Source of the DNA: a virus
Reading direction: 5' to 3' (one strand)
IMG/VR virus record: IMGVR_UViG_3300025102_000249
Span: 1 to 25,744 of that record
DNA length: 25,744 nucleotides
Of this stretch, positions 8,380-17,963 are shown piece after piece. The translations under genes were made by a program, and so were the position numbers. Position 1 is the first letter of the stretch; each line of letters begins with the position of its first letter. The notes under the pieces are model-generated. The model did not search any database and had not been told where the DNA came from. It saw nothing but the letters and a program-made list of their open reading frames with translations.

Positions 8380-8593
8380 CAGTAGCCAACTTGCTCAAGA
8401 CCCTCTTACGCTTTCCGCCCAAATCATAGAACTCCTTCTTAGCCTCGTCATTATTCCAGACGAAGTTCCCTCCGGCACACTCGCTCCTGTGCCAAGCAAG
8501 TTCCTTGCGTCTCTCATCTATAGCCTCAAGAACCTGCTTCAGTTCCCATACGGATGCGGGTTTCCTTACTGGCCTGTTTTCGTCAAACAACAT
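8366..8593 (-). CDS. Hypothetical helical protein (75 aa)
   Basis: I do not recognise this 75-residue protein. It is charged and mainly helical (WELKQVLEAIDERRKELAWHRSE, then KKEFYDLGGKRKRVLSKLATAMLD). ATG 8593 was chosen over an in-frame start 27 bases upstream because AAGGA lies at proper distance before it. It overlaps the stop of the DnaA-like gene by 11 bases and is the last gene of the leftward operon, ending inside the 3' end of the opposing gene. Confidence 0.6.
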   Translation of the reverse strand: MLFDENRPVRKPASVWELKQVLEAIDERRKELAWHRSECAGGNFVWNNDEAKKEFYDLGGKRKRVLSKLATAMLD

Positions 8594-8972
8594 CTTTGAT
8601 CCTTTCTTTTGCTCTCTCATTCTCTTTCCTCAAATGCTCCCTGTAGAAGTCTTTGTAATACTTAAATGAATTCTTTATGCAGTCACAGTAGCCGCCCTCT
8701 AGGTCTAGCTCCAGTATGCCCTCGATCTGCTTAAACCCCTTTATGGTAGCAGCGTGATCTCTGTTAACTGCCAGAGCTATTCTGGGGTATGTAAAGTCTG
8801 ACTTTCTTAATAGCCAGTAGATTGTCTGTCTAGCTAGTGCTATCCTCTCAGTCCTCTTGTAGCTAAGTACGTCCGAGTCTTGAACCCCGAACCCAAAGCA
8901 GGATGCGACGATAGACATTTGCAGCATAGCCCTCTCCTTATTGGTGAGTGGCGGTTGGTTTTTATTTTTCAT
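8583..8972 (-). CDS. DnaA domain IV-like DNA-binding protein
   Basis: A 129-residue protein whose middle resembles the C-terminal DnaA-box-binding domain of DnaA: an ARQTIYWLLRKSDFTYPRIALAVN helix-turn-helix (about 47-70) followed by RDHAATIKGFKQIEG (71-85), comparable to the RDHTTVLHAxxxIE signature that contacts DnaA boxes. There is no Walker A or B motif and no AAA+ domain, so it cannot act as a full initiator. The C-terminus (about 95-129) is a charged helix. ATG 8972 is supported by AGGAG 5 bases upstream. The leader (8973-9043) is G-rich and a palindrome copy lies at 9044-9059. Likely roles are recognition of a phage origin, recruitment or blocking of host DnaA, or regulation. Confidence 0.7.
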   Translation of the reverse strand: MKNKNQPPLTNKERAMLQMSIVASCFGFGVQDSDVLSYKRTERIALARQTIYWLLRKSDFTYPRIALAVNRDHAATIKGFKQIEGILELDLEGGYCDCIKNSFKYYKDFYREHLRKENERAKERIKDVV

Positions 8973-11569: not shown

Positions 11570-12112
11570 TTATGGCTTTAAGAACCCGTCCACGTTTGCC
11601 TCAACCGCAGCGCGGCGTGAGGTAGGGGTCTTACCGTTGCTTCTTCCTGAAGCCATTGCTGCCACCTTGTTCTCTCCGACTGCCTTAACGCCATCATCAT
11701 CCGGCTCGTCAGTTGCAATGCACAGTAGTGCTTGCAAGGTGTAGCGTCTGGCATAGGTCAGCGCACTGCCGAAGGCTTGCGCGTCATCGCGTCCGCCCAT
11801 CAGTATAGGCATCTGAGTCTTGATCTCTTGCTCGCCACGAGCGATATGGCAGGTGCAAAAATCCTGCCTTGGGTAGTGAACCTTCGTGCCGTCCTCCCTT
11901 AACTCTGTGTACTCTCGCACAGAGTCAATGGTGTGAGTAAGGAAGCAGCCTTCCTTGTTAAGCACAGGTCTGGCAACCTCGATGAACTCATCAAGTCCAG
12001 CGTACTTGCTTTTGTAGTGTGGATTCTTGGAGGACTTTTCTGCCCTCTCCAGCTTCTCCTGAACTCGTGCAAGCACTTCGTACAGGTTTTCGGTTTTATT
12101 GTTCGTTGGCAT
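11570..12112 (-). CDS. erf: Erf-family single-strand annealing recombinase
   Basis: A 180-residue protein with ERF-superfamily hallmarks: an N-terminal helix, NPHYKSKYAGLDEFIEVARPVLNKEG (about 30-55), and SALTYARRYTLQALLCIATDEPDDDG (about 115-140), the conserved YARRY...DDD signature. Erf proteins anneal complementary single strands during phage recombination and genome circularisation. The C-terminal 40 residues are polar and low in complexity, as usual for the family's variable tail. Its start overlaps the preceding resolvase-like gene by 17 bases. Together with the split RecB-like nuclease and the resolvase-like nuclease it forms a recombination module; the palindromes could be convenient short homologies for it. 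Confidence 0.85.
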   Translation of the reverse strand: MPTNNKTENLYEVLARVQEKLERAEKSSKNPHYKSKYAGLDEFIEVARPVLNKEGCFLTHTIDSVREYTELREDGTKVHYPRQDFCTCHIARGEQEIKTQMPILMGGRDDAQAFGSALTYARRYTLQALLCIATDEPDDDGVKAVGENKVAAMASGRSNGKTPTSRRAAVEANVDGFLKP

Positions 12113-12431
12113 TGTTCTGTATTATTTTAAAGAACGCTTCGGCTGGCATAGACACGACCCACTCCTTGAGCTTCCCGCCTGTCCTGTAGCTCGCCACCAC
12201 TGGCAGCTTGCTGCCGCAGTCGGAGTGCGCTTGGATCAGTGCCGCTTCTATGTTTGGCCTCTGCGTATATTTTACTTCAAAGTGGAGATGTGGCAGGTCT
12301 TCACAGATTACATCTGGTGCGGATTCATCGCCGCTGAATTGCTGCCCTCGCCTAGAGTTTGTATAGCCAGCAGCCTTTAGCTGATCTCGCCACATCCTCT
12401 CTCCACGTTTACCTTTCTCTCTGCTATTCAT
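12096..12431 (-). CDS. Holliday-junction-resolvase-like PD-(D/E)XK nuclease
   Basis: A 111-residue protein beginning MNSREKGKRGERMWRDQLKAAGY, with catalytic pattern E11, P39-D40 (APDVIC) and E52-V-K54 (LHFEVKY), plus SRRGQQFSG before the PD. This matches the phage resolvase/VRR-type nucleases found beside Erf or Sak genes. ATG 12431 is chosen because the conserved pattern begins there, but it has no Shine-Dalgarno. The leader just upstream folds into a strong two-level hairpin containing an anti-Shine-Dalgarno-like sequence (12445-12510), so initiation may be unusual or regulated. It overlaps the Erf gene by 17 bases. Confidence 0.75.
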   Translation of the reverse strand: MNSREKGKRGERMWRDQLKAAGYTNSRRGQQFSGDESAPDVICEDLPHLHFEVKYTQRPNIEAALIQAHSDCGSKLPVVASYRTGGKLKEWVVSMPAEAFFKIIQNNANEQ

Positions 12432-12444
12432 TGAGATTTTAATT

Positions 12445-12510
12445 GGAGCGTGACACCACAAAGGAGGTGAGGCCAATGAGAGAAGCCTCAAGAGGGCAGT
12501 GCCACGCTCC
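12445..12510 (-). ncRNA. Nested hairpin with 16S anti-Shine-Dalgarno mimic
   Basis: A 66-base inverted-repeat structure lies between the RHH gene and the resolvase-like gene. The outer 12-base-pair stem is 12499-12510 with 12445-12456 (one G-U in RNA from the - strand). The inner 6-base-pair stem is TGAGGC/GCCTCA (12485-12490 with 12468-12473). The - strand RNA contains UCACCUCCUUU, which matches the 3' tail of many bacterial 16S rRNAs. Read on the + strand the same bases (12460-12470) are an ideal ribosome site placed 5 bases before ATG 12476 of a 12-codon frame ending at 12514. Which strand matters is unknown. Confidence 0.4.
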
Positions 12511-12515
12511 GTAAT

Positions 12516-12707
12516 TCATTCCGAGTGTTCCCCCACTGCGCTCTGCTCAATAAGTTTCTCGACGATCTCGTTCTTATTCCAGTGCGTTTCTCTCGCAAGC
12601 ATATTCAGCTTGGTGTGATGCCACTCGGTTATCCTGACGTGCAGACTTCTCCGCTCGTCACCTTTCTGCTTCTTGGGTAGTTGTACTGTGTTAGTGTCCT
12701 CACTCAT
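12516..12707 (-). CDS. Ribbon-helix-helix (Arc/MetJ-type) transcription regulator
   Basis: A 63-residue protein with a polar N-terminal arm (1-19) and then an RHH fold: strand RRSLHVRI (19-26), helix A about 28-41 (EWHHTKLNMLARET), turn, helix B about 44-55 (NKNEIVEKLIEQ). In this fold paired strands of a dimer enter the major groove and typically recognise short palindromic or tandem sites. AGGAG precedes ATG 12707 at 8 bases. A palindrome copy lies 52 bases upstream (12760-12775), next to a promoter-like region, as expected for autoregulation. It is therefore the best candidate reader of the AGTACTG family, an inference from fold and placement only. Confidence 0.75.
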   Translation of the reverse strand: MSEDTNTVQLPKKQKGDERRSLHVRITEWHHTKLNMLARETHWNKNEIVEKLIEQSAVGEHSE

Positions 12708-12728
12708 AATAGGCTCCTATACTGACAC

Positions 12729-12747
12729 ATTATCTGGTTCAAGTCAA
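12729..12747 (-). promoter_or_regulatory. Possible promoter elements of the RHH gene
   Basis: On the - strand TTGACT (12747-12742) and GATAAT (12734-12729) lie downstream of the palindrome at 12760-12775. They are too close to pair with each other: TTGACT pairs at 17 bases with a poor CAGTAT, whereas GATAAT has no good -35. If GATAAT is the -10, the palindrome occupies about -34 to -49 relative to the start, an activator-like place. Confidence 0.3.
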
Positions 12748-12800: not shown

Positions 12801-12845
12801 AAATTAAAAAGCGGAGTCGGGAGAAAGGTAGACCGACTCCGCTTG
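12801..12845 (-). terminator. Rho-independent terminator
   Basis: A perfect 12-base-pair stem AAGCGGAGTCGG/CCGACTCCGCTT (12809-12820 with 12833-12844) and 12-base loop. Read on the - strand it is followed by TTTTTAATTT. It lies downstream of the gene ending at 12889 and separates the upstream operon (13976 to 12889) from the RHH gene. Confidence 0.8.
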
Positions 12846-15096: not shown

Positions 15097-15124
15097 ATTA
15101 TACAGACCTGTACCAGTCTGTCAA
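15097..15124 (-). promoter_or_regulatory. Consensus sigma70 promoter with overlapping operator
   Basis: On the - strand a perfect TTGACA (15124-15119) and perfect TATAAT (15102-15097) are separated by 16 bases. The spacer is almost filled by an imperfect palindrome, CAGACCTGTACCAGTCTG (15103-15120, 7 of 9 positions symmetric), a good operator candidate. A further 10-base palindrome CCTGATCAGG lies just upstream (15137-15146). It drives the 78-residue gene, the 47-residue gene and the endolysin. Confidence 0.75.
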
Positions 15125-16846: not shown

Positions 16847-16893
16847 GTCTTTCTCTTTTGTTTATATGTTTCTTTATGTTCAAGGTTCTCCCC

Positions 16894-16929
16894 TGATTAC
16901 TGCCCCCGCAGCGCGGGGGCAGGGTATCA
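16894..16929. repeat. 36-base intergenic hairpin, copy 1
   Basis: TGATTACTGCCCCCGC-AGC-GCGGGGGCAGGGTATCA: a 10-base-pair GC stem flanked by TGAT/ATCA arms. It differs in one loop base from the copy at 17928-17963. Its TCA end is the TGA stop of the gene at 16927-17466. It lies between two - strand genes and has no U-run, so transcript-processing or partial-attenuation roles fit better than full termination. Confidence 0.85.
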
Positions 16930-17902: not shown

Positions 17903-17927
17903 CGTGTTTTTGCTATTAGGTTTAAAC

Positions 17928-17963
17928 TGATTACTGCCCCCGCTGCGCGGGGGCAGGGTATCA
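17928..17963. repeat. 36-base intergenic hairpin, copy 2
   Basis: The same sequence as 16894-16929 except T for A in the loop. It lies between the stop of the 61-residue gene (17971) and the start of the 138-residue gene. Confidence 0.85.

Follow-up and report, generated by a model that had tools for sequence, protein, structure and literature searches.

In alpha-proteobacteria, RNAs with an unpaired CCUCCUCCC motif silence mRNAs at their ribosome sites (PMC10746234), and the CcsR RNAs share a transcript with the gene of a small protein (PMC10253847). A hairpin with an anti-Shine-Dalgarno loop was investigated here in a 25,744-nucleotide stretch of virus DNA (positions 1 to 25,744 of IMG/VR record IMGVR_UViG_3300025102_000249), referred to as the window. 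The hairpin is probably a phage-borne member of an anti-Shine-Dalgarno small-RNA family of Verrucomicrobiota, which would pair with the ribosome sites of other mRNAs. It is composed of the following parts.

12445-12510, - strand: anti-Shine-Dalgarno hairpin RNA, 66 nt (fold; covariance-model matches)
12496-12510, - strand: 5' arm of the outer stem, pairing with 12445-12459 (fold; covariation)
12445-12459, - strand: 3' arm of the outer stem (fold; covariation)
12468-12490, - strand: inner stem-loop UGAGGCU-UCUCUCAUU-GGCCUCA (fold; covariation)
12460-12467, - strand: exposed CCUCCUUU on the 3' side of the internal loop, resembling the 16S tail (invariance of CCUCCUU)

The - strand RNA had a minimum free energy of -35.1 kcal/mol (z -5.7), and none of 200 shuffled sequences was equally stable; the fold of the + strand was far weaker (z -2.0). 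A two-stem hairpin on this strand had been proposed from the sequence alone with stems of 12 and 6 bp. The fold was confirmed, with corrected lengths: the outer stem has 15 bp (12510-12496 with 12459-12445), three G-U pairs included, and the inner stem has 7 bp (12490-12484 with 12474-12468), one of them G-U, closing a terminal loop of 9 nt. The internal loop is asymmetric, with CCUCU opposite CCUCCUUU. The 11-base match to the 3' end of 16S rRNA claimed in the same reading was reproduced: the 11-mer UCACCUCCUUU at 12470-12460, which has a single match within the window with one mismatch tolerated, equals the 16S tail GGAUCACCUCCUUUCUA taken from a Verrucomicrobiota genome. Since the UCA of the 11-mer is base-paired, the exposed part is CCUCCUUU. 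The hairpin is followed directly by AAUUAAAAUC and lacks a terminator U-tract. In Rfam it scored above no gathering threshold and no family matched up to E 1-5, apart from a chance match to a snoRNA (E 0.38) on the opposite strand.

The hairpin lies between two genes, and the surrounding unit was annotated as follows.

12516-12707, - strand: RHH (ribbon-helix-helix) gene, 63 aa, HicB/Arc-like fold, with the hairpin as its predicted 3'UTR (adjacency in relatives; weak Pfam HicB match)
12719-12747, - strand: predicted RHH promoter, TTGACT-N17-CAGTAT (same geometry in RHH loci)
12809-12844, - strand: terminator-like hairpin with CCUUUCU in its loop, insulating the RHH unit (sequence; relatives)
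12096-12431, - strand: RusA-like nuclease gene, here following the hairpin, without a Shine-Dalgarno site (phrog_244, E 4.6e-12)

The match of the RHH protein to Pfam HicB was weak (E 0.0086, below cut-off). Relatives were gathered with a profile of the RHH protein itself, blind to the RNA, which yielded 24 loci. In 23 of these a hairpin with CCUCCUU begins 1-10 nt past the RHH stop codon; in the remaining locus (L169) the RHH and nuclease genes overlap and the hairpin is absent. The hairpin is followed by the nuclease gene in some loci and by a small cargo gene or larger insert in others. Two additional hairpins found through a DNA pattern were RHH-linked too. Each contig carries one hairpin, and no further copies were detected in the same phages. 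No RHH relatives were found in isolated phages or in genome contigs. Other matches to the DNA pattern, in unrelated phages (L063, L064, L067, L069-L071 and L075-L078), had no hairpin and were discarded; several of them were ordinary ribosome sites read in reverse.

The earliest close relatives had come from a search with the nuclease protein. In some of these the hairpin was in place, with diverged stems and ACCUCCUUU unchanged, and in others it was missing at the nuclease start, since its place is after the RHH gene. The sequence-only reading had correctly noted that the nuclease gene starting at 12431 lacks a ribosome site, as no Shine-Dalgarno complement is present at its start. Its link between hairpin and nuclease was not sustained: the hairpin stays with RHH whichever gene comes next, and a role as leader of the nuclease gene was rejected on this variable neighborhood and the constant RHH linkage. 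Gene order across the relatives thus identifies the hairpin as a putative 3'UTR element of the RHH gene. In the window the -10 box of the predicted RHH promoter ends 11 nt upstream of the ATG, and in all 24 RHH loci, the window among them, this distance is 6-11 nt. From this spacing, RHH mRNAs are predicted to be leaderless or nearly so, and the loop would consequently have no Shine-Dalgarno site of its own to mask.

Several other features of the window were recorded. Although its stem changes, the terminator-like hairpin at 12809-12844 has CCUUUCU, or a sequence close to it, in the loop in most relatives. CCUUUCU also occurs within the 16S tail (...CCUCCUUUCU), and in several relatives an extra hairpin, containing UCCUUUC, is located at the preceding gene's stop codon. 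The palindrome AGTACTGNNCAGTACT is present in 13-14 copies across the window, within and between genes (expected 0.11), at these positions:

930, 5267, 7678, 9044, 10314, 11277, 12760, 13432, 14663, 16085, 18277, 19194 and 24179: palindrome AGTACTGNNCAGTACT

One copy lies just upstream of the -35 box of the RHH promoter, where relatives have different palindromes. The RHH protein may use these palindromes as dispersed operators, similar to stoperators. A perfect sigma-70 consensus promoter (TTGACA-16-TATAAT) at 15097-15124 on the - strand is probably the main leftward early promoter. At 8583-8972 on the - strand, the early phage operon encodes a protein with a DnaA C-terminal DNA-binding domain (Pfam Bac_DnaA_C, E 5.5e-10). 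Two 37-nt repeats (16893-16929 and 17927-17963) are 97% identical and contain a GC-rich hairpin, CTGCCCCCGCWGCGCGGGGGCAG.

Relatives of the window nuclease in bacterial genomes were mostly from Verrucomicrobiota, and the terminase was nearest to those of Akkermansia phages. Both affiliations point to Verrucomicrobiota as the probable hosts of these phages. Three covariance models were used to search for the RNA: R1 was built from nine phage copies only, R2 from four host and two phage copies, and R3 from 20 host and three phage copies with the window copy excluded; E-values from these purpose-built models are rough. When R1 was applied to 16 genomes with nuclease relatives, seven genomes, of Verrucomicrobiota/Lentisphaerae, were matched, with E-values of 4.9e-6 to 8.6e-5 per genome. 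The host matches were free-standing hairpins of like architecture with a promoter-like TTGACA-TAACAT just upstream and a U-tract right after. A phage copy (L160) and a host copy (L313) share 36 nt of exact identity over the 5' loop, the inner stem and the anti-Shine-Dalgarno loop. The window copy, which was in no training set, was recovered with E 5.6e-7 by R1 and 1.1e-5 by R3, and was borderline (0.007) with the mainly host R2.

Under strict filters, which make all presence counts lower bounds, R2 and R3 detected the RNA in at least 23 of 289 genomes of the phylum. It was present in 15 of 37 relatives of genome G156, with up to nine copies, in 38 of 39 relatives of G038, a subdivision-3 Verrucomicrobiota bin, and in 5 of 38 genomes of an even phylum sample. 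None of 41 Bacillota control genomes carried it, and the two matches among 38 Myxococcota genomes were weak (E above 0.003), as chance would give. Among 62 distinct host copies, CCUCCUU was found in 61 and ACCUCCUUG in 60; a U-rich tract follows the hairpin in 48, and a TTG-type promoter ends within a few nucleotides upstream in 33. In all ten tested loci of the subdivision-3 type (L237, L238, L243, L284-L289 and L292) tRNA-Asp(GUC) lies just downstream of the RNA, a conserved gene order. The nearest upstream open frame was on the opposite strand in 31 of 46 host loci, which means that in most cases the hairpin does not terminate an upstream gene. A crude ORF caller, applied to GC-rich DNA, put thirteen of the 46 hairpins within open frames of 90 aa or longer. 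Three genomes (G156, G052 and G325) contain five to nine diverged copies each, and such multi-copy genomes suggest an RNA family with separate targets. Host copies had no Rfam match at curated thresholds (L235-L238) or up to E 1 (L249).

The window hairpin and the host RNAs very probably share one RNA family. Few copies have diverged as far as that of the window, whose nearest host copy is 56% identical. In a tree of hairpins the phage copies did not form one resolved clade, the sequences being too short to separate one capture from several. The window hairpin has neither the own promoter nor the terminator U-tract of the host form and lies in the RHH 3'UTR; it is a variant of the family and not the free-standing host form. 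The family, defined by a two-stem covarying hairpin with CCUCCUU in the internal loop, is apparently undescribed.

Direct alignment of all phage copies with MAFFT misplaced the loop, and covariance-model alignments were used instead. In the phage set (19 distinct copies, aligned with R1), 91.7% of the cells pair, and 46 cells were changed on both sides, compared with 14.2 in shuffles; slid controls did not exceed 12. The host set gave 211 double changes against 56.0 in shuffles and a mixed phage/host set 69 against 21.2. None of 500 shuffles matched any of these three values. Cells with G-U outnumbered those with A-C by 65 to 7 in the phage copies and by 192 to 11 in the host copies, an argument for the strand that was used earlier for the L17 downstream element (PMC2864571). 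Because the wobble pairs settle the strand, the hairpin RNA has the sense orientation of the RHH mRNA. All phage copies have an unaltered CCUCCUU in the internal loop, and the anti-Shine-Dalgarno loop is the sole fixed sequence common to all copies. Its offset within the internal loop varies by 1-3 nt between groups, as expected for a linear pairing site. The sequence-only reading had proposed an RNA that displays an anti-Shine-Dalgarno sequence and had named covariation and conservation as its check. This proposal was supported, as the stems covary, CCUCCUU is retained at the same place in relatives, and a multi-copy putative small RNA of this kind is found in Verrucomicrobiota.

With these results, pairing with Shine-Dalgarno sites is the mechanism we consider probable. 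The bacterial form would be a free-standing small RNA of approximately 75 nt ending at its own terminator, and in the phages it would have become part of the 3'UTR of an early gene for an RHH regulator, no more than 10 nt after the stop codon. Once transcribed, the phage hairpin may be released or may act within the mRNA. Its open internal loop would offer CCUCCUU to AAGGAGG-type sites of other mRNAs, of host or phage, and the resulting duplex would block ribosome loading and repress translation. Since the loop is identical to the 16S tail, it cannot pair with 16S rRNA and would compete with it for AAGGAGG sites. The RHH mRNA, being predicted as leaderless, would escape repression. Among the starts of orthologous phage genes no conserved strong complement to the loop was found; we infer that the RNA more probably acts on host mRNAs or, generally, on phage genes led by a Shine-Dalgarno site.

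A further-reaching scenario is put forward tentatively: phages may have captured a housekeeping RNA of Verrucomicrobiota and joined it to a leaderless regulator mRNA, so that Shine-Dalgarno-led translation would be repressed and the RHH mRNA, together with early genes lacking Shine-Dalgarno sites, spared. If true, the capture would amount to a switch of initiation mode through RNA mimicry of the 16S tail, and the leaderless RHH mRNA provides a simple prediction of self-immunity. Few small RNAs are known from Verrucomicrobiota. The conserved and apparently undescribed family found here has clear covariation, a defined seed of 7 nt and a phage counterpart, and it makes two questions accessible to testing: do bacteria beyond the alpha-proteobacteria use an anti-Shine-Dalgarno regulator globally, and do phages copy regulators of this kind for translation takeover?

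Other roles were weighed against pairing with ribosome sites. The hairpin could be a processing or stability element, either an RNase III site or a 3' stabilizer, that splits the RHH mRNA from the downstream genes and uses the loop only structurally. The processing hairpins of phage T7 are intercistronic and contain an asymmetric internal loop, and here too a long stem with such a loop stands right after a stop codon, with variable genes downstream. However, a structural signal would not be expected to keep one 7-nt loop sequence unchanged across phages and hosts when both of its stems vary freely, and the host copies are not placed between the genes of one operon, which makes this role unlikely. 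The order of promoter, small regulator gene, hairpin and early operon is also that of antitermination or attenuation elements such as lambda nutR after cro or the HK022 put RNA. The put RNA consists of two hairpins, whereas a single one is present here; moreover, no consistent terminator occurs just downstream of the phage hairpins, and the host hairpin itself precedes a U-tract and would end the transcript. We regard antitermination as very unlikely. In the + strand, the sequence-only reading had seen an antisense leader peptide. An ideal ribosome site and a frame of 12 codons (AAAGGAGG-N8-ATG) are indeed present in the window, but the peptide is not conserved: in 8 of 20 relatives an ATG at the proper distance is missing, and the frames of the other relatives are 2-78 codons long and unrelated in sequence. 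As fold and G-U bias both favor the - strand and the hairpin is conserved across phages and hosts, this peptide, or chance, is scarcely credible.

Two alternatives concern the loop itself. It could act as a protein decoy, mimicking the 16S 3' tail and titrating its binders, e.g. Era or ribosomal proteins of the 30S platform. The loop does equal the 16S tail CACCUCCUU, all loops are pyrimidine-rich, and motifs outside it are kept as well, such as UUCCUCA/UUCCCCA in the terminal loop. The GAUCA of the 16S tail, on the other hand, is not conserved among the hairpins, and no protein partner is known, whereas pairing RNAs of the same logic are (PMC10746234), so that a decoy appears rather unlikely. 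Masking in cis would be directed at the ribosome site of the RHH mRNA, by 3'UTR-5'UTR pairing, or at that of the next gene. The precedent is icaR, likewise a repressor gene, with an anti-Shine-Dalgarno motif in its 3'UTR (PMC3868564), and AAGGA sites occur near the hairpin in some downstream cargo genes. The predicted leaderless RHH mRNAs would rule out self-masking of this type, and the nuclease gene, where it follows directly, has no Shine-Dalgarno site at all; cis masking is thus highly improbable. Pairing with the ribosome sites of other mRNAs remains the preferred reading.

Among described systems, the family is most similar to alpha-r14/NfeR1, cuckoo and CcsR1-4, where an unpaired anti-Shine-Dalgarno motif is likewise ultraconserved, the stems diverge and several copies occur. 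As in CcsR, the phage RNA would follow a small protein gene in one transcript. The motif is CCUCCUUG here and CCUCCUCCC in cuckoo, alpha-r14 and CcsR; it is displayed in several hairpins there and in the internal loop of one hairpin per RNA here. Those RNAs occur in alpha-proteobacteria in a DUF1127 or stand-alone context, the present ones in Verrucomicrobiota and phages with an RHH partner. No sequence kinship between them was detectable by Rfam match, and by its CCUCCUU(U), single hairpin and RHH partner the window hairpin falls outside these families. The icaR mRNA of Staphylococcus aureus is the message of a repressor gene, and its 3'UTR too contains an anti-Shine-Dalgarno motif (PMC3868564), but it pairs with its own ribosome site, which the RHH mRNA is predicted to lack. 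From the RNase III hairpins of T7 the present hairpin differs by its invariant 7-nt loop and its free-standing host homologues. Phage anti-sRNAs and sRNAs of the AgvB type (PMC4104026) are similar in that a phage-carried RNA acts on host riboregulation. AgvB opposes a host small RNA, whereas here the phage RNA resembles a host RNA and sits within an mRNA.
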